Below, piece after piece: positions 5,804 through 47,884 of a stretch of 64,000 nucleotides of DNA (its first letter is position 1; the number at the start of each line of letters is the position of its first letter). The DNA comes from an uncultured Treponema sp. (GTDB lineage Bacteria; Spirochaetota; Spirochaetia; Treponematales; Treponemataceae). Under the pieces are notes generated by a model that saw only the letters and a program-made list of their open reading frames with translations, was not told the DNA's origin and did not search any database. The stretch lies in NCBI GenBank assembly GCA_946411505.1, contig CAMKEG010000001.1, positions 744,001 through 808,000 of the forward strand, read 5' to 3'. The position numbers were made by a program, and so were the translations under genes.

Positions 5804-5948
5804 CCGCAAGCGGAGCGTTGCGGCTTATTGCCCGGCGCTCGTAAGAGCGCAAGTAAATAATTTCAATCTTGCAAAACGGCGGGCTTGCCCGACCGTATGC
5901 GGCAATCATACGATTATGGTCTTGTCATTTTTCTTCTTGCCGCTACTA
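5804..5948 (+). repeat. Structured dispersed repeat, family I, copy A
   Basis: The element contains hairpin GCGCTC-GTAA-GAGCGC, a linker with AAGTAAATAATTTCA and GCAAAACGG, hairpin CGGGC-TT-GCCCG, and an end segment closed by GCGGCAA/TTGCCGC. Its first 24 bases recur exactly at 5966-5989 and its last 53 bases recur with one mismatch at 5988-6040. Related copies lie at 32837-32903, 34644-34839 and 51530-51594. The 5477-6119 interval holds no convincing gene; it is made up of this and neighbouring repeats. Confidence 0.75.
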
Positions 5949-5965
5949 TTCGACGTGAAAACCGT

Positions 5966-6040
5966 CCGCAAGCGGAGCGTTGCGGCTTATGCGGCAATCA
6001 TACGATTATGGTCTTGTCATTTTTCTTTTTGCCGCTACTA
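5966..6040 (+). repeat. Structured dispersed repeat, family I, internally deleted copy
   Basis: This copy joins the first 24 bases of copy A directly to its last 53 bases, so the central two hairpins are missing. The junction falls in the shared sequence around TTATGCGGC. It ends just where the infC promoter begins. Confidence 0.75.
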
Positions 6041-26663: not shown

Positions 26664-26819
26664 AAAAAAACGCTTCCAGTTGCGGTGTGGCTTGTCGGCG
26701 CCGCTTGATATCGGCGCTACTCGCTGTTTGCGCTTGAAACTTTCTGATTCCGCCGCTTTTGCGGCGGCGCAAACAGAGAGTCGCCGCAAGCCACCCCGCG
26801 CCTTCGCACGTTTTTTTTT
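26664..26819. repeat. Structured dispersed repeat, family II, copy 1
   Basis: A 156-base cloverleaf-like element. The outer stem pairs AAAAAAACG (26664-26672) with CGTTTTTTT (26809-26817). Inside are GTGGCTTG/CAAGCCAC (26687-26694 with 26787-26794), CGGCG/CGCCG (26696-26700 with 26782-26786), CTGTTTGCG/CGCAAACAG (26724-26732 with 26768-26776) and a hairpin CCGCCGC-TTTT-GCGGCGG (26750-26767). It sits between convergent genes, and A- and T-runs at its ends suit a two-way terminator. A second copy is at 45441-45600. Confidence 0.75.
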
Positions 26820-34643: not shown

Positions 34644-34839
34644 GATTGCCCGCCCGCGTGAGCGGGCAAGTAAATCATTTCTTATCGCAAAACGGCAACG
34701 CCGTAATGTTGCGGCTTATTGCTTGGCGCTCGTGAGAGCGCTAGTAGATAATTTCATTTTTTGCAAAACGGCGGACTTTTGTCCGACGTATGCGGCTAGC
34801 CATCGTTTTTTGGCTTGCCTCAATTTTTTTTTGCCGCTA
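34644..34839 (+). repeat. Structured dispersed repeat, family I, copies D and B in tandem
   Basis: Copy D (34644-34704) has hairpin GCCCGC-GTGA-GCGGGC and CGGC-AAC-GCCG. Copy B (34709-34839) has GCGCTC-GTGA-GAGCGC, then CGGAC-TTTT-GTCCG, then GCGGC...GCCGC. Both keep the linkers AAGTARAT and GCAAAACGG of copy A at 5804-5948. The last bases provide the stop codon of the J-domain gene on the minus strand. Nothing else is seen between map and that gene. Confidence 0.75.
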
Positions 34840-35601
34840 TCCCTTTCCGCCCGCGCCGCCGATTCTGTCCGCTTCCTCAAAGCAAATGTCCGCCGTTCGC
34901 GCGTCGCCAATGCGCTTGTAGATGATTCCCATCTTCCGCAAGACAAAGGCGTCCTCCGCGTCGCCAAGCTCAAGCTCCAAGGCGCGCTCGTAAGCGTCAA
35001 GCGCAAGCTCGTCGCTTATGACGCCCTCTATGTGGTTTCGCAAAATGTTCTTCGCGAAAGAAAGCACTTCCGGAAAAAAAAGACGGAAGTAATCGTAAGA
35101 ATATTCCATCTTTATTATTTGCTCAAGCAGGCAAAAGGCGTCGTAATAGTCGCCGCGCAAGTGCAGCTCCTCGCTAAGAATAAAGCCGTAGTCCATGAAG
35201 TTTTCGCGCGTGAACCAATGCTTGAGCGAAAACTTTGACCGTTCCGTCTGCATCCGCTTGAATTCCGCGACGGCGTCGTCCTCGCGGCCATGCATCAAAT
35301 CAAAGAAAATCAGCTTGGCGCGGCTTTCGTCGTCTTCGCGCGCCAAAAGCCATTCGCGGTAGTCCCAGGAATTTACCTTGCGCCTTCTAAAATGCGCGGC
35401 GAACGAAGAGTCAAAAATGGAGCGCGCTTTTTGGTCGGTAAGAATTTCGTAGGCGCGGACGACTTTCTTAAAATGTTCGGCGGTCGCTTCGTCCCCAGAA
35501 ACGTCTGGATGATATTTTTTAACTTTTTCCCTGTAGGCGCGCCTAATTTCGGCAATCGTCGCGCCCGGCTTTACGCCAAGTATCCGGTAGCAGTCTTCCA
35601 T
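34837..35601 (-). CDS. J-domain protein (DnaJ-like)
   Basis: 254-residue protein. Residues 1-70 are a J-domain (CYRILGVKPGATIAEIRRAY) with the HPD motif in KKYHPDVSGDEAT, which stimulates the ATPase of Hsp70. The rest is helical with TPR-like features (ALDAYERALELELGDAEDAFV; YKRIGDARTADICFEEADRI) and lacks the Gly/Phe and zinc-finger parts of DnaJ, so it is a specialised co-chaperone. It follows the universal stress protein gene by three bases. The stop codon comes from a dispersed repeat. Confidence 0.85.
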   Translation of the reverse strand: MEDCYRILGVKPGATIAEIRRAYREKVKKYHPDVSGDEATAEHFKKVVRAYEILTDQKARSIFDSSFAAHFRRRKVNSWDYREWLLAREDDESRAKLIFFDLMHGREDDAVAEFKRMQTERSKFSLKHWFTRENFMDYGFILSEELHLRGDYYDAFCLLEQIIKMEYSYDYFRLFFPEVLSFAKNILRNHIEGVISDELALDAYERALELELGDAEDAFVLRKMGIIYKRIGDARTADICFEEADRIGGAGGKG

Positions 35602-35604
35602 CTT

Positions 35605-36111
35605 TTACAATATTCTGAACAAGTCTTCAATTTTTGGCTCGTACACAATCAGGGTCGAGCAGTTGGCGTTCAAGATAATGTCTTTGTCCGTCCTGGAAAA
35701 AACGTTGGAATCGTCGTGAACTTTTCCGGTGACCGCGTAGCGCGAAGGATGGCCTCCAAGCAAAATCAGTTTGGCGGCAAAAGAATCCGCGGCCTTCACA
35801 ACCTCAACCCAAACGCTTCCCTCGCGAAGCTCGGACTCGGCCTTGACGCCCTTCTTTTTGGCCAGCCCGGCGACGTAGTTCAAGTACTTTTCGCCGTCCG
35901 CGTGAAGGTTTGTCTCAAAGTCGGCGCATTCTTCCTGCACCAAAAATTTTCCGATTGTAAGGCGTTTCAAAGTGGCGGTGTCAACGACGTAAACAAACTT
36001 CAAGTTAAAATGATATTGCTTTGCCAAAATGATTCCATACATCGCGGCATGAATCGACGATTGAGAGCCGTTCACCGCGACCAACACATTTTTCACTAAA
36101 GGTTTGACCAT
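35605..36111 (-). CDS. Universal stress protein family
   Basis: 168-residue UspA-like protein. The N-terminal strand KNVLVAVNGSQSSIHAAMYG and a C-terminal NANCSTLIVYEP fit the Usp fold. The usual ATP-binding Gx2Gx9G(S/T) segment is only partly kept (LGGHPSRYAVTGKVHDDS). GGAGG precedes the ATG. It comes between the V/A-ATPase subunit D and a J-domain gene, so it probably responds to or modulates ATPase state (inference). Confidence 0.8.
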   Translation of the reverse strand: MVKPLVKNVLVAVNGSQSSIHAAMYGIILAKQYHFNLKFVYVVDTATLKRLTIGKFLVQEECADFETNLHADGEKYLNYVAGLAKKKGVKAESELREGSVWVEVVKAADSFAAKLILLGGHPSRYAVTGKVHDDSNVFSRTDKDIILNANCSTLIVYEPKIEDLFRIL

Positions 36112-36122
36112 TCGTCCTCCGC

Positions 36123-36743
36123 TTAACTTTTGACTTTATTTTTTAGAGCCTTAAGAACAAAGGTGTTGTCGCGCTCCCTTTCTTCCAATTGGCTTTCAAT
36201 GTATTTTTTAGTTTCCGACGCTTGCGGAATCACCATTTTGTCAAGCGCGTTGACGCGGCGCTGGGTCTTCTTCACCTCGCCCGCAAGGCGCCAAACAATC
36301 GTGCGAATGCTGGCCATGTCGGTCAAGAGGCGCAGCAAATTGAAAAAATCCACCATCACTTCGTCGCAGCTGGAAAATGTTCCCAAGAAAGAATAGAACA
36401 ATTGCCGCTCAGGAAGGTCAACGTCGATTGAGGAAAAATTCATGCCGCCGATTGTGACAGGCTTTTCCTTAATCTTAAAGTCGTAGCGGACGGCTCGCGC
36501 CATTTGCTCGACGCGGTCGCCGCCAACGCGCAGCAACATTCGCTTCAGGGCCGGATAGGCGCGGTTAATCAACTTGTCTATGTCGCGCTCAAGAACCTTG
36601 ACCTTGTCAACCATCCGCATCAACTCCATGACAAGAATTTCGCGCTTTTGCTCAAGCAGCTCATATCCGTTTTGGGCGGAGGCAAGCTGCTCTTTCATTG
36701 CGAGAAGGTTTGACTTTGTGGGCGCGATGTTAAGCTTTGCCAT
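36123..36743 (-). CDS. atpD: V/A-type ATPase subunit D
   Basis: 206-residue central-stalk subunit, which with F forms the rotating shaft. It is a long coiled coil beginning IAPTKSNLLAMKEQLASAQNGYELLEQKREIL and ending with the paired helices VWRLAGEVKKTQRRVNALDKMV, both typical. It begins directly after the subunit B stop in the ATPase operon. Confidence 0.92.
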   Translation of the reverse strand: MAKLNIAPTKSNLLAMKEQLASAQNGYELLEQKREILVMELMRMVDKVKVLERDIDKLINRAYPALKRMLLRVGGDRVEQMARAVRYDFKIKEKPVTIGGMNFSSIDVDLPERQLFYSFLGTFSSCDEVMVDFFNLLRLLTDMASIRTIVWRLAGEVKKTQRRVNALDKMVIPQASETKKYIESQLEERERDNTFVLKALKNKVKS

Positions 36744-38144
36744 TTATTCAGCGCTGTCCTTGGGAAGATATTTTTCGATGTATTCGGCCTTGACGCGGAG
36801 CAGTTCGTCGCGCGGCAAATACTTGAGCGTCCGCCAGCCGATGTCCAATGTTTCGTCAATCGAGCGGTCCTCGTATTCGCCCTGGCACAAGAACTCCCTT
36901 TCAAAGTGGTTTCCAAAGTTCAAGTACATTTTGTCAAGCTCGCCCAACTCTTCCTCGCCGATAATGGCCGCGAGGTTTCTGATGGACTTGACCTTTGAGT
37001 AGGAGGCGAAAAGCTGGCTTGAAACGCCGGCGTGGTCTTCGCGGGTCATCACGCGGCCGTCGTCCGCCACTCCGATTCCGTCCTTCATCAAGCGAGAAAG
37101 GCTTGGAAGTCCGGCGACGGGCGGATACATGTCCTTTTGGTAAAGCTCGCGGTCCAAAACGATTTGGCCCTCGGTGATGTAGCCTGTAAGGTCTGGAATC
37201 GGGTTTGAAATGTCGTCGTTGGGCATTGTCAAAATCGGAATCTGCGTGATGCTGCCCTCGCTTTCCTTTATGCGGCCCGCCCTCTCGTACAATTCGGCAA
37301 GGTCGGAATACAAGTATCCCGGATAGCCCTTGCGGCCCGGAACCTCGCCGCGCGTCGTGGAAATTTCGCGCAGGGCTTCGCAGTAGTTTGTCATGTCGGT
37401 CATAACGACCAAGACGTGCATTCCTTTTTTGTAAGCCAAATATTCCGCGGCGGTCAAAGCGCAGCGCGGAGTGATTATGCGCTCGATGCTGGGCGCGTCG
37501 GCCAGCGACTGGAACATGACTACTTTTGAAAGAACGCCGCTTTCCTCAAAGGTGTTGACAAAGAAACGCGCGACGTCGTACTTGATTCCCATTCCGGCAA
37601 AGACCATTACAAATTGGTCGTCGGAATTTTTCAATTTTGCTTGGCGTATGATTTGCGCGGCGAGCTTGTTGTGAGGCAATCCGTTTCCGCTAAAAATCGG
37701 AAGCTTTTGGCCGCGAATCAATGTGTTCATTCCGTCAATCGAAGAAATGCCGGTTTGTATGAAGTCGCGGGGATAAACGCGCGCGTAAGGATTTATAGGG
37801 CTTCCGTTTACGTCAAGCTTTTCGGAAGAAACGATTTGGCCGTAGCCGTCGATCGGCTCGCCAAGGCCGTTGAAGATGCGGCCCAAAAGGCCTTCGCCAA
37901 CGCGAAGCTCCAGCGGCTCCCCCAAAAATTCTATCGAAGATTCCTTCAAGTCAATGCCGGTCGTGCTTCCAAAAACTTGGACAATAGCGGCGTCCTCGTT
38001 CAAGTCGATGACGCGGCCGGTTTTCTTTTCGCCGTTTTTGTCGCGGACATAGACGACTTCATTGTACGAAACGTTTTCGCTGCGGCGGACGGCCACAATC
38101 GGGCCTTCGACAGAATTAATTCCTCTGTATTCAATTCCTTTCAT
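36744..38144 (-). CDS. atpB: V/A-type ATPase subunit B
   Basis: 466-residue non-catalytic nucleotide-binding subunit of the V1/A1 head. It shows [17 protein letters not shown], the P-loop-like but degenerate [13 protein letters not shown] and the conserved [20 protein letters not shown]-type block (here [20 protein letters not shown]). It starts by overlap with the subunit A stop. Confidence 0.95.
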
Positions 38145-39907
38145 TACAATTCCACCTTGCGGTAAGTCCGCTCCAAGTCAGCCATTTCCGTTTCCATGCG
38201 GCTTTCGATGTCCTTGATTTTGTCAAGCCTGTCGTTTTCAACTTCGCTCTTTATGCGGACAATTTCCTCGCGGCACTTTAGCGCGGAAATTTGTCCAAGC
38301 GGAGCGCCGGCCTTTACCAAAGCCAAGGTCCGCTCGTAAAAATTCATTATCAAGGACAAAATGACAATTTGCTTTTCGGCGGCGCAGTAAGAGTCAACCT
38401 TGTCGTAAGAGTTTTGCTGCAAAAAGCCGTTCTTAATCATTTCGGAAACAATCAAGACAAGGCGCTCCGAATCCGGCAAGGCGTCGGGGCCAATCAAGCG
38501 GACGATTTGCTGCAAGCGCTGCTCGGTCTTAAGAAGGTCCAAGGCCTTTTGGCGAATCGTGAGCCATTCGGGATTTTGCCTTTCCCACCAGTCCTTGACT
38601 TCGTCGGCGTATTCGCTGTATGAATCAATCCAGCCGATGGCCGGGTAGTGGCGCGCGTTGGCCAAGTCGCGGTCAAGCGCCCAAAAGCATCTGATAAAGC
38701 GCTTTGTGTGCTGGGTGACTGGTTCGCTAAAGTCGCCGCCGGGCGGGCTTACCGCTCCGATAACGCTTACGCTCCCTTCCTTTCCGTCCAAAGAAATCAC
38801 GCGGCCGGCGCGCTCGTAGAACTCCGCCAATCGTGTCGGAAGGTAGGCGGGGAATCCTTCTTCCGCCGGCATTTCTTCCATGCGTCCGCTAAGCTCGCGC
38901 AAGGCTTCCGCCCAGCGGCTTGTCGAGTCGGCCATAATCGCAACCGCCATTCCCATGTCTCGGTAATACTCGGCGAGCGTGATGCCTGAATAAAGGCTGA
39001 CCTCGCGCGCGGCCACCGGCATGTTGGAAGTGTTGGCGATTAAAATCGTTCGCTCCATGAGCGAGCGGCCGGTTCGCGGGTCTATGATTTCCGGGAACTC
39101 GGTCAAAACTTCGGTCATTTCGTTTCCGCGCTCGCCGCAACCTATGTAAATGATTAAGCCGGCGTCGCACCATTTGGCCACCGAGTGCTGGGTCATCGTC
39201 TTTCCAGTTCCAAAGCCGCCGGGGATTGCCGCCGTTCCGCCCTTTGAAAGCGGAAAGAAAACGTCGATTACGCGCAAGCCGGTAATCAAGGGCTCGGAAA
39301 CAGCGAGCTTTTCCGCGTAGGGGCGAGGCTTTCTAACCGGCCAATACTGGCTAAGCTTCAACTCCTCGCCAAGCTCCGTGACGCCGACAACATCCTCAAT
39401 CGTATAAGAGCCGCTTCCCTTGAACTCTTGCAAAACGCGGCCGCGAGTTTGCGGCGGAACCATTATCGAATGCAAAATCGAGGAAGTTTCCTGAACCGTT
39501 CCCAAAACCATTCCGGGCTTGATTGGGTCTCCGGCCTTAAGCGCCGCCTTGAACTCCCACTTTTTTTGGTCGTCCAAGGCCTTGGCCCTTTGTCCTGCAA
39601 GCAAAAAGGAGCCCTTGTCCTCGTACATCGTCTTAAGCGGCCTTTGAATTCCGTCATAAATCGCGCCGACCAGGCCGGGACCCAAATGCAATGAAAGAGG
39701 CCTGTCCGTGCACTCAACGTCCTCGCCCACTTTAAGGCCGGTTACGTCTTCGTAAACCTGAATCGTCGCCTTTCCTTGGTTTTGGCGAATGATTTCGCCC
39801 ATCAATTTTTTTTCGCCGACGTTCACCACATCGTAAAGGCCGGAACCTTCAAGCCCCTTGGCAAAAACAATCGGGCCAGAAACGCGCTCAATTTGTCCGT
39901 GCGTCAT
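38144..39907 (-). CDS. atpA: V/A-type ATPase subunit A (catalytic)
   Basis: 587-residue catalytic subunit. The Walker A motif is [13 protein letters not shown], and the Walker B region is [17 protein letters not shown] with the [13 protein letters not shown] block. The non-homologous region between residues about 110-210 found in A-type but not F-type subunits is present. The ATP to proton or sodium coupling direction cannot be told. Confidence 0.97.
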
Positions 39908-40510
39908 TTAGAGCCTCCCGCCAAAAAGCGCGGAGCACATTTCCTTATAGTGCTTGTCCTTCGCCGCGCCGATAATTTCATCTATAGTCAACCTGATTTT
40001 CACGCTTCTGTCTTCCGACTCCAAAATCATGCCGTCAGGGTCATGCGCATTTTGAACGCTTTCGCAAGAAAGCAATTTGCTTCCCAACTTTTTTTCAACC
40101 GCGTCTTGGGCTTCCTTCTTGTCAAAGCCGCAAACTTTGGCGGAGAATTTTTTGCCCTTCGTAAGCTCTTCCTTTCCGTCCAAAAGTTTTGTCACAAGCT
40201 GGACGCGCTGGGAAGAAGACAAATTTTTTAAATAAGATTCTATCGCTTGGTCGATGGAGCTTCCGATAAATGAAACCAAAAAACGCTCCTTTTCAAGCGG
40301 AAGCGAAGCTTCGGAATCCTTCAACTTTTTGGCTTCCTTGGCTCCGTAAAATTTTTCTTTTTGAACCTTCGCGGCATCCAACCTTTCTTGGACGCGGCCT
40401 AAAAGTTCGGCGGCCTTTTGCTTGCTTTGGTCAAGCAAGGCTTGGGCCTTCTTCCGGGCGTCGTTTTGAATTTCCTTGTCCAGGATGTCGGTTGAGCGTA
40501 ATTCTTCCAT
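39908..40510 (-). CDS. atpE: V/A-type ATPase subunit E (peripheral stalk)
   Basis: 200-residue peripheral stalk subunit. An N-terminal coiled coil (DILDKEIQNDARKKAQALLDQSKQKAAELL) is followed by a globular C-terminal domain, the normal E layout. It has little sequence identity to distant members and is assigned by coiled-coil form, size and its place between F and A. Confidence 0.82.
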   Translation of the reverse strand: MEELRSTDILDKEIQNDARKKAQALLDQSKQKAAELLGRVQERLDAAKVQKEKFYGAKEAKKLKDSEASLPLEKERFLVSFIGSSIDQAIESYLKNLSSSQRVQLVTKLLDGKEELTKGKKFSAKVCGFDKKEAQDAVEKKLGSKLLSCESVQNAHDPDGMILESEDRSVKIRLTIDEIIGAAKDKHYKEMCSALFGGRL

Positions 40511-40531: not shown

Positions 40532-40867
40532 CTAAACTTGAATTCCTATCGCCTCGCGGATAGAGTCCGTAAGCGTTTTGCGACCGCTCAAATGCCCGTT
40601 GATTCCGGGTATTTCAACAATCAGCGGATACTTCGCGCCCCTCTGCCAGTCAACCACTTCGTTTTCCAGCAGCATGGAAACCTCTTCCGTAAGAATGAGA
40701 ACTTTTGGGCGCTCTTCGATTGCGGGCGCGTTCACCGCTCCGCCCTTGCCTGTGACGCGGTTAAAGGCGTCAAGAGCCTCGCTTCGGTTTGCGGCCACCG
40801 CTCCCGAAACGCCGACCAAGCCAAAGGCCAGAACGATTTCGCGTTCGCCAATAACAAAGTATTTCAC
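40532..40867 (-). CDS. atpF: V/A-type ATPase subunit F
   Basis: 111-residue central-stalk subunit with a CheY-like fold. It starts YFVIGEREIVLAFGLVGVSG and contains VLILTEEVSMLLENEV and YPLIVEIPG, both usual landmarks. It lies between the membrane rotor gene K and E. Confidence 0.9.
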   Translation of the reverse strand: MKYFVIGEREIVLAFGLVGVSGAVAANRSEALDAFNRVTGKGGAVNAPAIEERPKVLILTEEVSMLLENEVVDWQRGAKYPLIVEIPGINGHLSGRKTLTDSIREAIGIQV

Positions 40868-40876
40868 TAAAAAGGC

Positions 40877-43200
<2,324 letters not shown>

Positions 43201-43201
43201 T

Positions 43202-44191
43202 TCAAATCTCCTGGACCTTGACGTTCAAGCGCAACGCTTCCGTGGCCATGCGTATGTAGTCCAACTCCTTCGCCTTCACAAAATACCAGCAAAGCAAAGA
43301 AGCCTCTCCGCACGGATTGGCGTGAAACTTTTTGGTCGCTTTTTTTATAAATTCTTTTTCCGAACTTTCCTCAACCCAACGGGGGTCGACGCTCCAAAGG
43401 GAGCCTTCCTCGCGCGGATTCAAGAATTTCGCGTATTTCCAATTCTTCCAATCGTCCCAATTTTCAACGTCCTTGTAAAGGATTTCAAGGGCGGCGCCTC
43501 CAAGTGGGTCCATTTTTCCGTTGCGCGGATCCAAAAAGGCCAAACGCTGGACAATCTTGTTCTTGTCCATCTTGTAATAAAGCTTAAGCCGCAAAACCCA
43601 TACCACGTTGCGCATCGAATAGCGCTCGGCGATTAAGTCCTGGACGATTTTCTTTTCTTCGCCAAAAAGCTCCTGGCTGGAAGACCAAAGTTTTTCTATA
43701 AATTGCAAGTCCAGCTCGTTGTCAAGCTGTTGCTGCTCCACAACTTCCGGCGCCTTGTCGTACCAAGCCAACTCGGAGTCTTGCGTCATTTTTTGGATTG
43801 AGGGCCAAGCCCCGTAATTTAAAAGATTGTACGGACTTATGTCGAACAAGGGCGGAACGTCCTTCTGCCCCATCGCGGCGGCCGCTCCCAAGGACTTTAA
43901 ATTTTCGTAGTCAAAATATTGAAGCAAGTCAACCAACGCCTGGGCTGGCTGGTCGTAAGCCGCCAAAAGCTTTTTGTATTCGCCGATGAATTTTTCCGCG
44001 GCTTTTTGCTCGATTGTTTTTGCCAAAATTATTTCGGGAACGGACGGCGCTTCTTCGTCAAAAACAAGCGTCCACAAGTCCGCCAATTTTTGGGCGCCAA
44101 AAAGTTTCGCGGCCTTGGCGCCCGTAAACGAGCGCGCCAAAATTCCGCTGGCCTTAGCGTAAACATAAGAAGAAGCGCTTGAAGTGTCCAT
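43202..44191 (-). CDS. atpC: V/A-type ATPase subunit C (AC39-like)
   Basis: 329-residue connector between the central stalk and the membrane ring. The start YVYAKASGILARSFTGAKAAKLF fits the AC39/C family, and the protein is mostly helical with the typical length. It sits two bases before subunit I and after the coiled-coil subunit, in the A-type order. Confidence 0.85.
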   Translation of the reverse strand: MDTSSASSYVYAKASGILARSFTGAKAAKLFGAQKLADLWTLVFDEEAPSVPEIILAKTIEQKAAEKFIGEYKKLLAAYDQPAQALVDLLQYFDYENLKSLGAAAAMGQKDVPPLFDISPYNLLNYGAWPSIQKMTQDSELAWYDKAPEVVEQQQLDNELDLQFIEKLWSSSQELFGEEKKIVQDLIAERYSMRNVVWVLRLKLYYKMDKNKIVQRLAFLDPRNGKMDPLGGAALEILYKDVENWDDWKNWKYAKFLNPREEGSLWSVDPRWVEESSEKEFIKKATKKFHANPCGEASLLCWYFVKAKELDYIRMATEALRLNVKVQEI

Positions 44192-44203: not shown

Positions 44204-44506
44204 TTACAAAATTTTTTCCAAAAACTTGTTGAACGTGTCAATGTCTTTTGGCGTTTGTTCTATCTGCGACTTGTATTCATCCAATTGATTTTTGTGCGAC
44301 TTCTCAATTTGGGCGATTTTTTCGTTGTATTCGCTTTCCATTTGGGAGGCCATGCTTTCATATTTTTGATTGTAGTCGGAATCAGCCTTCACTCTGGCGG
44401 CGTTGATTTCCTTTTCGCCCTCAATTTGGGCTTGGCTGATAAGTTCCGCGGCCTCTTCCTCAACTTGAAGAAGATGGGCGATAGTGTCCTGTTCGTCGTT
44501 AGGCAT
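44204..44506 (-). CDS. V/A-type ATPase subunit G/H-like coiled-coil protein
   Basis: 100-residue coiled-coil protein (TIAHLLQVEEEAAELISQAQIEGEKEINAARVKADSDYNQ...) with heptads along nearly the whole length. It matches the peripheral stalk subunit G/H by size, form and place before C. The ATG at 44506 overlaps the EIIA gene stop; an open frame to 44533 lies inside that gene. Confidence 0.75.
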   Translation of the reverse strand: MPNDEQDTIAHLLQVEEEAAELISQAQIEGEKEINAARVKADSDYNQKYESMASQMESEYNEKIAQIEKSHKNQLDEYKSQIEQTPKDIDTFNKFLEKIL

Positions 44507-44967
44507 TAGGCCAATGCCTCCTCTAGCGCGCAAAGTTCGTCATAAACTTCCCGCGCGGTCTTTTTTTCGGCAAGGCGGGAAGCGGCTTCGGGATTCTTAA
44601 GAATCAAGGCCAACTGCTGCATAACTTTCAAATGCAAGGCCGTGCCGTCGCTTCCGAACAAAAGCATGAAGACGACATGAACCGGCTTGGCGTCAAGCGA
44701 GCCGTATTCAATGCCGGCGCGGCTGATTCCAATCGCGCCGAAGCCGTTCTTTACGGACGGACAAGAGGCGTGCGGAATCGCAACCGACGGAATTATTCCT
44801 GTGGTCATCTTTTCTTCGCGGGCGATTAAAGCGTCCAAGGCTTCCTTGCGGTCAATTCCGCAAGCGCCGCGCTCAAAAAGCTCGACCATTTCCTCGAACA
44901 ATTCGTCCTTGTCAGAACTTTCAAGATTTACATTGATAAGTTCAGGCTTAAAAAAAGACTCCAACAT
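44506..44967 (-). CDS. PTS EIIA component, fructose/nitrogen (PtsN-like) type
   Basis: 153-residue EIIA-2 domain protein. The phosphorylated residue is expected to be His66 in VAIPHASCP. Other landmarks are EKMTTGIIPS and VFMLLFGSDGTALHLKVMQQLALIL. Stand-alone members regulate rather than transport sugar. It begins 11 bases after secG and overlaps the subunit G/H start, so it is placed inside the ATPase operon. No EIIB or EIIC gene is nearby. Confidence 0.85.
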   Translation of the reverse strand: MLESFFKPELINVNLESSDKDELFEEMVELFERGACGIDRKEALDALIAREEKMTTGIIPSVAIPHASCPSVKNGFGAIGISRAGIEYGSLDAKPVHVVFMLLFGSDGTALHLKVMQQLALILKNPEAASRLAEKKTAREVYDELCALEEALA

Positions 44968-44978
44968 AGGCTTTTGGA

Positions 44979-45365
44979 TTACTCCTCGGCGGGCGCGTCA
45001 ACGCTCTGCTTGGGGGCTTCCTTTGAAGATGAATCGTCAAGATACTTGTACCATTCAAAGTCCTCGGCGGCTTCGCCTGTCGTGGTGTCAACGGCTTCCT
45101 GAACTTCGGGAGAAAGGGTCTGCTTTACGGCAGGCTTTCTGTTCAAGCGCGCGATGAAAAAGGCGTCCAAAATAAAGAGGACCACAAGGACAAAAGTAGT
45201 CTTGCTGATTACGCTGGCGGAATGAGAGCCAAAGGCCGCGCTGCCTGAACCGCTCAAAAGGCCGCCAAGTCCGCCGCCCTCGTCGTTTTGAATCATTACC
45301 AAAAGAACCAAGAGAACGCAGATAATCACAAAGGCGACCATCAAAATTGCTTTTACAACACCCAT
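44979..45365 (-). CDS. secG: Preprotein translocase subunit SecG
   Basis: 128-residue membrane protein of the Sec translocon. Two hydrophobic helices (AILMVAFVIICVLLVLLVMI and VISKTTFVLVVLFILDAFFI) flank the glycine-rich loop EGGGLGGLLSGSGSAAFG, the SecG hallmark. A polar C-terminal tail of about 45 residues is longer than in E. coli. GGAG precedes the ATG. It heads the run of secG, EIIA and ATPase genes. Confidence 0.93.
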   Translation of the reverse strand: MGVVKAILMVAFVIICVLLVLLVMIQNDEGGGLGGLLSGSGSAAFGSHSASVISKTTFVLVVLFILDAFFIARLNRKPAVKQTLSPEVQEAVDTTTGEAAEDFEWYKYLDDSSSKEAPKQSVDAPAEE

Positions 45366-45401: not shown

Positions 45402-45430
45402 ATTATAATGAAAAAAAGAAATATATTCAA
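45402..45430 (-). promoter_or_regulatory. Promoter of the secG-EIIA-ATPase operon
   Basis: TTGAAT (45425-45430) and TATAAT (45402-45407) are 17 bases apart on the minus strand. The -10 box lies within the symmetric ATTATAAT. The leader is about 30 bases with a GGAG ribosome-binding site. A family II structured repeat ends about 10 bases upstream of the -35 box. Confidence 0.6.
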
Positions 45431-45440
45431 GAGAAAAAAT

Positions 45441-45600
45441 AAAAAAACACGCTCCCAGTTGCGGATGCGACAGTTCGGCACCGCTAGCTAGCGTCGCTAC
45501 TCGCTGTTTGCGCTTGTAACTATTTAACTCCGCCGCTTTTGCGGCGGCGCAAAACAGAGAGTTGCCGCCTGTCGCCCCACGCCTTCGCGCGTGTTTTTTT
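45441..45600. repeat. Structured dispersed repeat, family II, copy 2
   Basis: Outer stem AAAAAAACACGC (45441-45452) pairs with GCGTGTTTTTTT (45589-45600). Inside are GCGACAG/CTGTCGC (45467-45473 with 45569-45575), CGGCA/TGCCG (45476-45480 with 45563-45567), CTGTTTGCG with CGCAAAACAG, and the same CCGCCGC-TTTT-GCGGCGG hairpin (45530-45547) as copy 1 at 26664-26819. Stems differ from copy 1 by paired changes. It fills part of the 382-base gap between secG and tpiA. Confidence 0.75.
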
Positions 45601-45747: not shown

Positions 45748-46497
45748 CTACTCGTTGCAGATGGGCTCGAAGGTCTCGGCTTTGAGCGAGGCGCCGCCAA
45801 TCAAGCCGCCGTCGATGTCGGGTTGGGCAAGCAAGTCTTTGGCGTTGGAGGCTTTCATTGAGCCGCCGTACTGGATGATTGTCTCGTCGGCGACCTTCTG
45901 GTTGTAAAGCTTGGCGATGTAGGCGCGGCAGAACTTGTGGATGGCCTCGGCGTCTTCGGGCGTCGCGGTCTTTCCTGTTCCGATGGCCCAAACAGGCTCG
46001 TAGGCGATTGTGACTTTCTTCATCTGCTCTTCGGTGACTCCGGCCAAGTCGGCCGAAAGCTGGAAGGCGCAAACCTGCTCGGCGTTTCCGGCCTCGCGGT
46101 CAGAAAGCAATTCGCCGATGCAAAGAACGACCTCAAGGCCTTCGTTGAGCGCGCGGCGAACCTTTTTGTTGATGAGCTCGTCGGACTCGCCGATTTCGTG
46201 GCGGCGCTCCGAGTGGCCGAGGATTACCGACTGAACGCCCAAATCCTTAAGCATTTCTGTAGAAACTTCGCCTGTGTGGGCGCCGTTGGCCGTTGCGGCC
46301 ACGTCCTGGGCTCCCAAAAGGATGTTGGATCCCTTGAGGACCTGTCCGACGGCGTCAAGGTAAACGAAAGGAACGCCGACCATGAATTTGTTGGTCTTTC
46401 CCTTAAGCGCGGCGACCAAGTCCTGGGCCAACTTCACGGCCTCGGCCTTGGATGTGTTCATCTTCCAGTTTCCTGCGATATAATGTGTTCTTGCCAT
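45748..46497 (-). CDS. tpiA: Triosephosphate isomerase
   Basis: 249-residue glycolytic enzyme that interconverts dihydroxyacetone phosphate and glyceraldehyde 3-phosphate. The substrate-binding Lys is in AGNWKMNTSK, the base Glu in YEPVWAIGTGKTATPEDAE (the family signature), and the electrophilic His in LGHSERR. AGGAGA precedes the ATG. It follows pgk on the same strand. Confidence 0.97.
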   Translation of the reverse strand: MARTHYIAGNWKMNTSKAEAVKLAQDLVAALKGKTNKFMVGVPFVYLDAVGQVLKGSNILLGAQDVAATANGAHTGEVSTEMLKDLGVQSVILGHSERRHEIGESDELINKKVRRALNEGLEVVLCIGELLSDREAGNAEQVCAFQLSADLAGVTEEQMKKVTIAYEPVWAIGTGKTATPEDAEAIHKFCRAYIAKLYNQKVADETIIQYGGSMKASNAKDLLAQPDIDGGLIGGASLKAETFEPICNE

Positions 46498-46612: not shown

Positions 46613-47884
46613 TTACTTTTGCGCCAAGATAGCGATGCCAGGAAGGGTTTTGCCCTCAAGGAACTCCAAGCTGGCTCCGCCGCCTGTAGAGACGTGGGTC
46701 ATCTTGTCGGCAAGGTGGAACTTGTTGACGGCGGCGACAGAATCTCCGCCTCCGACTACTGTCATGGCTCCGCGGCCTGTGGCTTCGGCTACCAAGCGGG
46801 CAACCTGCTCGGTTCCCCTGGCAAAAGCGTCAAACTCAAAGACTCCGACCGGTCCGTTCCAAACGATGGACTTGGCAGTGGAAAGAACTTCCTTGTAAGC
46901 CTCGACAGTCTTGGGGCCTACGTCCATGGCCATCAAGTTTTCGGGAATGTCGATGTTGTCAACGGCGACGGCCTTTGCGTCGGGAGAGAACTCTTCGGCG
47001 CCGACGTGGTCAACAGGAAGAATGATCTTCACGTTCTTGGCGGCCGCGTCGCTCAAAAGCTTTTTGGCTGTGTCGATGAAGTCGTCCTCAACCAAAGACT
47101 TTCCCACCTTGTGGCCCTGGGCCTTGAGGAATGTGTAAGCCATTCCGCCTCCGATGACAAGAGCGCTGGCGTTTTTCATCAATGATTCCAAAACCGCGAT
47201 CTTTGAAGAAACCTTGGCGCCTCCGATGATGGCAACCTGCGGCTTGGGCGGGTTTGTGACCATGGGCTCGATGTTGGCGACTTCCTTTTCCATCAAGAAG
47301 CCTCCGACCGGCTTTTCGGCCATGAACTTGGCGATTGTGGCCGTTGAAGCCTGGTCGCGGTGGGCGGTTCCAAAGGCGTCGTTTACAAAAATGTCGCCGT
47401 ATGTTGAAAGCTCTTTGGCCATTGTCTCGCGCTCGGCGTCAACCTTGCTGGTCTCTTCCGGGTGGAAGCGGACGTTTTCAAGCATGGCCACGGCTCCTTC
47501 CGGCAAAGCGTCGATGGCGGCCTTTTGTCCGAGGGCGTCGGGCAAGAAAGTCACGGGCTTTCCAAGCTTTGAGGCAAAGTATTCGACGACCGGCTTCATG
47601 CGGTTCTTTCCGTTGATGAACTTTTCCTTGTCGGCGTCTGTCCAAGTCTTTCCGGCTTTTTCGGCCTTTTCCTGGGCCTTCTTGACGTCCTTTTTGGGGT
47701 CGCCCAAGTGGCTCATCAAAACGAGCGAGCGGGGGCTTTGCTCAAGAATGTATTTGATTGTAGGAAGGGCGGCCATAATGCGGGTGTCGTCCTGCACGAC
47801 TCCGTCCTTCATCGGAACGTTAAAATCAACGCGCATAATCACGCGCTTGCCTTTGAGGTCAACGTCTTTGACTGTCTTAATCAT
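46613..47884 (-). CDS. pgk: Phosphoglycerate kinase
   Basis: 423-residue glycolytic enzyme making ATP from 1,3-bisphosphoglycerate. The N-terminal signature is RVDFNVPMKDG with the LMSHLGDPK block, and the C-terminal nucleotide-binding part shows VVGGGDSVAAVNK. Slightly longer than E. coli (387) through a Lys-rich stretch near residues 65-90. AAGGAG precedes the ATG and a promoter lies upstream. Confidence 0.97.
   Translation of the reverse strand: MIKTVKDVDLKGKRVIMRVDFNVPMKDGVVQDDTRIMAALPTIKYILEQSPRSLVLMSHLGDPKKDVKKAQEKAEKAGKTWTDADKEKFINGKNRMKPVVEYFASKLGKPVTFLPDALGQKAAIDALPEGAVAMLENVRFHPEETSKVDAERETMAKELSTYGDIFVNDAFGTAHRDQASTATIAKFMAEKPVGGFLMEKEVANIEPMVTNPPKPQVAIIGGAKVSSKIAVLESLMKNASALVIGGGMAYTFLKAQGHKVGKSLVEDDFIDTAKKLLSDAAAKNVKIILPVDHVGAEEFSPDAKAVAVDNIDIPENLMAMDVGPKTVEAYKEVLSTAKSIVWNGPVGVFEFDAFARGTEQVARLVAEATGRGAMTVVGGGDSVAAVNKFHLADKMTHVSTGGGASLEFLEGKTLPGIAILAQK

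Follow-up and report, generated by a model that had tools for sequence, protein, structure and literature searches.

Genes at the locus

The window, by which we mean the whole 64-kb stretch of DNA analysed here, carries on its minus strand a tight run of genes reading secG-EIIA-G-C-I-K-F-E-A-B-D-Usp-DnaJ, in which no intergenic gap from secG through DnaJ exceeds 21 nt (all genes and the promoter-like site described in this section lie on the minus strand, in window coordinates). The run begins with secG (44979..45365), whose identity is confirmed by a Pfam match of 50.2 bits against a cut-off of 29.2; the first-pass annotation of an EIIA gene after secG in an ATPase operon holds. secG ends 11 nt upstream of the gene for a stand-alone PTS EIIA protein of 153 amino acids (44506..44967), which we call EIIA-V. 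The 3'-terminal codons of secG contain a GAGGAG motif ahead of the EIIA-V start, and where EIIA-V ends, its stop has one base in common with the start of the following gene (position 44506, within TAATG). This following gene (44204..44506; 100 amino acids from the ATG at 44506) encodes a G/H-like peripheral-stalk subunit, an assignment made by position together with a V-ATPase_G match in Pfam that stays under the threshold (E 0.0017; 19.3 bits, where 28.6 is the cut-off). Two distant G-like proteins gave no Pfam match, and the position of G is constant across loci.

Subunits C (43202..44191), I (a; 41206..43200), K (c; 40877..41209) and F (40532..40867) follow, all recognised by Pfam scan, then E (39908..40510), which has no Pfam match and an NCBIfam match below the cut-off, and then A (38144..39907), B (36744..38144) and D (36123..36743); the operon thereby encodes the A, B, C, D, F, I and K subunits of a V/A-type ATPase. 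The run closes with a universal stress protein (Usp; 35605..36111), conserved after D, and a J-domain protein (DnaJ; 34837..35601), a less constant member of the operon. Upstream lie tpiA (45748..46497) and pgk (46613..47884), neighbours named by likeness whose link to the run is looser. Just upstream of secG is a promoter-like match, TTGAAT-17-TATAAT (45402..45430; 10/12), the best in the stretch, which is to be read as a consensus match only; 13 such sites were found where 6.3 were expected. Between tpiA and secG there is also one copy (45475-45553) of a 79-nt repeat whose other copy, 87% identical, is at 26695-26773; a 53-nt direct repeat, 98% identical and with a spacing of 92, occupies 5896-6040.

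The EIIA-V protein

EIIA-V matches Pfam PTS_EIIA_2 (PF00359) with 110.6 bits (cut-off 27), and its residue 66 is the histidine of an 'AIPHA' motif. R50, H66 and H112 are all present, bearing out the earlier claim of a stand-alone EIIA with an intact His66; we take these columns to be the EIIA active site, the phosphorylatable histidine with its arginine and histidine partners. In 88 distinct EIIA-V sequences of the window's family R50, E51, T56, P65 and H66 never vary (R50 and H66 88/88 each), and H112 is kept in 83, being leucine in two and asparagine in one, with two sequences not covering it. Among 66 rows drawn from the family, the order and the phylum, R50 and H66 are found in 66/66 and H112 in 65/66. 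Tyrosine replaces H112 in two of 10 further family loci (L270, L277), and a class of EIIA with tyrosine in place of His112 also occurs in other spirochaete families (5/5 rows: L206, L207, L212, L213 and L214).

The AlphaFold2 model of EIIA-V (pLDDT 90.5) has the EIIA fold, with a TM-score of 0.86 to EIIA-Ntr (2a0j) in a Foldseek search of the 'pdb' set only, and EIIA-Ntr is also the nearest to EIIA-V by sequence among solved proteins. EIIA-V nevertheless falls under the NCBIfam cut-offs for PtsN (TIGR01419, 63.3 against 138.7 bits; PRK10896, 37.8 against 221), and its neighbours are secG and ATPase genes and not rpoN.

Gene order across relatives

A scan of one genome per species (84,980 species) returned 158 relatives; we retained the best 80, chosen by likeness of the EIIA and not by context. 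The titles of these 80 loci are those of treponemes or unplaced spirochaetes, including T. parvum, T. socranskii, T. lecithinolyticum, T. saccharophilum, T. berlinense and T. ruminis. Among these best 80 of the 158 relatives, secG adjoined EIIA in all 78 pairs in which both genes were found, EIIA adjoined G in 79/79 and G adjoined C in 79/79. Comparison across spirochaetes, which the first-pass annotation had called for, thus shows that the order is not unique to the strain. In the same best 80 of 158, Usp came directly after D in 54/55 pairs, which makes it a possible partner of the ATPase; DnaJ adjoined Usp in 20 of 25 named loci with both genes, many contigs or stretches ending before DnaJ. 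The proposed mixture of ATPase with stress functions therefore holds well for Usp and less constantly for DnaJ. tpiA was next to secG in 34/45 named pairs.

The search of the order covered 241 genomes, 148 of them outside the window's family; among these 148 a profile match with E of 1e-40 or better was found in 111 and none in 37, and one family (f4) mostly lacked an EIIA profile match at 1e-40 or better. Thirty stretches around strong matches in the order were taken and one, a second copy in the genome G183, was set aside, leaving 29 loci from other families, in which EIIA lies beside secG in 26 and beside G in all 29. The copy set aside (L171:5984-6475) is EIIA-V-like, and no ATPase gene was recognised in its 12-kb stretch.

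The overlap of EIIA-V with the stalk gene, which the first-pass annotation took as coupling the two, is real in the window as the one shared base. As a conserved coupling it is ruled out, since, of the 78 named loci that could be measured, only 11 have an EIIA stop running into the start of G (the median gap is 26 nt), and none of the 29 loci from other families of the order has one. The overlap is lineage-specific; it is the order of the genes that is conserved.

In the phylum (296 genomes) the eight matches that fell outside the order and had E below 1e-44 were read as loci; seven of them show a recognisable G next to EIIA, and five continue with C. In L197, L200, L201, L202 and L203 the upstream sequence is long enough to show secG, and none is there; L196, L198 and L199 break off just before EIIA and cannot be judged for secG. 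As L197, L201 and L202 carry EIIA-G-C-I with room upstream and without secG, secG is not needed for the arrangement. In the draft genomes of L199, L200 and L203, C and I are on another contig, and the gene next after EIIA-G is convergent with it. These two-gene units lie at L199:4709-5511, L200:5301-6250 and L203:5195-6048, and the convergent gene looks hydrolase-like by eye ('LAHG').

In the EIIA tree the operon-linked EIIA-V proteins fall in one clade of 69 EIIAs (86/80). Most members of this clade sit in the V/A-ATPase operon, and they come from the window's family, from other families within the order and from some of the deeper spirochaetes. The best EIIA matches of four genomes (G070, G076, G019 and G020) proved by their place in the tree to be a general PtsN-like paralog and not EIIA-V.

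A second EIIA lineage is found at the opposite, 3' end of the operon, where three genomes from three other families read ...B-D-Usp-EIIA (L245:12146-13228, L210:3549-4639 and L244:745-1776). These Usp-linked EIIAs form a clade of their own (99/92) outside the 69-row EIIA-V clade, and a single clade holding both ATPase-linked lineages is not rejected (p-AU 0.236); either an EIIA moved between the operon ends or EIIAs joined the operon twice. Relatives also carry a second, distant V-type ATPase (L236, L237, L238 and L243), with no EIIA recognised in these four loci, and the window's genome has two subunit I matches.

Presence and absence in the family

We compared the positions of EIIA, SecG and subunit I in 145 genomes of the window's family, with manual reading of the tables and a separate check of each unclear locus. 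Subunit I of the window's ATPase type is present in 118 of them; 102 of these have EIIA-V beside secG (four, G107, G141, G126 and G036, seen by locus check only), 14 show a clean absence and two (G065, G083) are undecidable at contig ends. A spot check of the 102 read secG-EIIA-G-C-I in 10/10 loci (L268, L270-L278). In G026 the EIIA match is on another contig (L215), and the operon locus (L229) is a clean absence of EIIA-V. A quick tree of subunit I that included 12 of the 14 absences required eight EIIA-V changes, seven of them forced by well-supported branches, which puts the losses of EIIA-V from genomes retaining the ATPase at about eight.

Among the 27 family genomes without this ATPase, no EIIA-V was found in 25, where diverged copies elsewhere are possible, and it was kept in two. 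The secG locus could be read in 19 of the 27, with no EIIA beside secG; seven of these 19 read secG-DnaJ-map (L247-L250, L255, L259 and L265), indicating that the block from EIIA to Usp was lost as one piece, and in other genomes too the joint loss of EIIA-V and ATPase may reflect single block deletions. For six (G011, G017, G022, G027, G044 and G082) no SecG was found and the absence of EIIA-V comes from search scores alone. The two genomes that kept EIIA-V, G030 and G040, belong to one genus and read secG-EIIA-DnaJ-map (L266:474-2930 and L267:290-2759); the ATPase-Usp block is gone, and EIIA-V retains R50, H66 and H112. From these absences and retentions it follows that EIIA-V is dispensable for the ATPase and is itself seldom, though not never, found without the ATPase; as the family genomes are related, the counts are not independent trials.

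Phosphorelay genes and other EIIAs

The window's genome encodes one EI, one HPr and one HPr kinase, the last adjoining HPr, and in L241:3768-7001 the genes for HPr and its kinase adjoin an ORF that resembles RpoN by eye. EI is present in 141/145 family genomes, and the four without it (G016, G022, G038 and G070), two of which are only 81% and 51% complete, are also without EIIA-V. PF00359 has five matches in the window's genome. Besides EIIA-V, a separate PtsN-like EIIA (L001) is encoded; L002:1285-1932 looks by eye like a fusion in which the EIIA comes after a helix-turn-helix segment, and the EIIAs L004 and L005 sit on very long tree branches. Among EIIC proteins we searched for the family PF02378 only, which is found in 35 of the 145 family genomes; it has no match in the genome of the window, whose operon genes include no EIIC.

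Rates of divergence

We also compared the divergence of EIIA with that of its neighbours, corrected for that of subunit A. Over all 86 sets secG gave the highest value of the operon genes (0.54), followed by G, C and I (0.32-0.33) and K, F and E (0.25-0.27); tpiA gave 0.43 over 42 loci. When the sets were split, the 66 Treponemataceae alone gave 0.33 for C, 0.35 for I, 0.27 for secG and 0.18 for G, and the 20 sets from outside the Treponemataceae 0.73, 0.65, 0.42 and 0.49, respectively. In the split sets C and I are thus level with or above secG, G is unremarkable and no partner is singled out.

Discussion

Based on the conserved gene order and the intact active site we tentatively propose, with a confidence that stops a little short of even, that EIIA-V is a dedicated, phosphorylation-switched regulator of the V/A-ATPase with which it is encoded, perhaps docking on its stalk. 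That the gene lies in the operon of the pump and is seldom found without it suggests a tuning of the pump to the energy supply of the cell. HPr would phosphorylate His66 at the expense of PEP, in which case the ratio of phosphorylated to unphosphorylated EIIA-V would report the PEP:pyruvate state; it is in this sense that we infer a link to sugar or PEP status, as the first-pass annotation had supposed. One of the two forms (the unphosphorylated one, if EIIA-V behaves like E. coli PtsN) would then bind a cytosolic part of the pump, and binding would change ATP hydrolysis or pumping to match the glycolytic energy supply. As EIIA stays beside G even where the other ATPase genes lie elsewhere, the E/G peripheral stalk is perhaps the docking site. 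Since the ATPase has survived without EIIA-V, we regard the protein as a regulator and not a core subunit, a role that is unlikely for it.

The alternative that survives best, one we hold to be unlikely though worth serious weighing, is that EIIA-V serves as an output of the regulatory PTS but acts chiefly elsewhere (on K+ balance, transcription, stress or the second V-type ATPase) and is only co-expressed with the ATPase. PtsN proteins elsewhere do have several targets, according to the available part of PMC13104625; intact EIIA-V persists in two genomes without an ATPase of the window's type, and the comparison of rates shows no clear preference for ATPase subunits. Yet the genome already encodes a separate PtsN-like EIIA, no EIIA-V was found in 25 of the 27 genomes that lack the ATPase, and the pairing of EIIA with G outlasts the separation from the remaining ATPase genes. 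The two retentions (L266 and L267) do weigh against a role confined to the ATPase, and as these genomes kept EIIA-V after the ATPase was lost, the protein probably has at least one further role; their genus is the best place to seek a second target.

It is improbable that the ancestral order of the operon simply persists by neutral inheritance, with no functional link. The order is inherited vertically, EIIA was repeatedly lost while the ATPase was retained, and the joint losses could be single deletions, all of which neutral inheritance would allow. It accounts poorly, however, for an order conserved in several families with the active site kept, for EIIA and G staying a pair apart from the other ATPase genes, and for a second EIIA lineage at the opposite end of the operon. 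Still less probable is a service of EIIA-V to SecG and membrane protein export in place of the ATPase: within the order EIIA nearly always adjoins secG, its divergence tracks that of secG best over all 86 sets, and it remained beside secG in L266 and L267 after the loss of the ATPase, but secG stands without an adjoining EIIA in 19 ATPase-less genomes, and L197, L201 and L202 join EIIA to the ATPase without secG. That EIIA-V, as a member of the fructose/mannitol EIIA family, works as the A component for some sugar PTS permease with its genes elsewhere is hardly to be expected, given that its gene is located with the ATPase and that an EIIC of the PF02378 family, the only one searched, is missing from the window's genome and from 110 of the 145 family genomes in all.

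The proposed regulation of the ATPase by EIIA-V would have its closest parallel in PtsN (EIIA-Ntr) of Proteobacteria, which EIIA-V resembles in fold, in the histidine and arginine columns and as the nearest solved sequence. According to the available parts of PMC13104625 and PMC11808508, PtsN binds TrkA, KdpD and YcgO, in E. coli it is the unphosphorylated form that binds K+ transport proteins, and ptsN2 lies within the kdpDE cluster. Regulation of ion transport by direct binding, described for PtsN in the part of PMC13104625 available, is for EIIA-V a proposal by analogy; unlike PtsN, EIIA-V scores below the PtsN cut-offs, is not beside rpoN and is encoded with a rotary ATPase. The ptsN2 of root-nodule bacteria, as described in the same part of PMC13104625, is likewise a stand-alone EIIA in the gene cluster of the ion-transport system that it regulates; its target is the sensor kinase KdpD, whereas EIIA-V belongs to the operon of a rotary V/A-ATPase, its putative target. 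HPr phosphorylation has been studied in Treponema denticola, which 'lacks PTS permeases' and whose PTS is regulatory (Gonzalez et al. 2005, cited in PMC2937029). PMC2937029 also comments on the HprK of T. denticola, and its available part mentions no ATPase-linked EIIA.

The cytosolic domains of SLC4 anion exchangers place an EIIA-like fold on an ion transporter, a weak and distant match (5jho, TM 0.70, rank 46), and there the domain is part of the transporter chain, unlike the stand-alone EIIA-V. To our knowledge no phosphorelay acts on these SLC4 domains. In eukaryotes, the glucose-regulated assembly of the V-ATPase ties pump activity to the glycolytic state; as this control uses other proteins and no phosphohistidine relay, it can serve for EIIA-V as an analogy only. 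We know of no rotary ATPase under phosphohistidine control.

In the literature that we searched, from which most subscription papers fell outside, no description of an EIIA within a V-type ATPase operon was found. Papers mentioning both a V-type ATPase and EIIA or ptsN concern other matters in their available parts (PMC6456747, PMC8359418 and PMC10533825), and the words 'ATPase' and 'Treponema' each count 0 in the available text of PMC2405797 and of PMC13104625. A stand-alone EIIA that controls ion transport and is encoded with its target is already known, and what would be new is a rotary ATPase as the target.

A bolder version of our proposal, which taken as a whole we consider unlikely, is that the PEP phosphorelay directly gates the spirochaete V/A-ATPase through its stalk, with EIIA-V as a detachable, phosphohistidine-switched accessory subunit, with EIIAs having entered opposite ends of the operon, possibly twice, and with the whole forming a bacterial counterpart of the glucose control of the eukaryotic V-ATPase. 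If EIIA-V does gate the V/A-ATPase, the phosphorelay would gain a concrete output in a genome with five EIIAs and no PF02378 permease; this would also illustrate a way for fermenting cells to adjust ion pumping to the PEP at hand.
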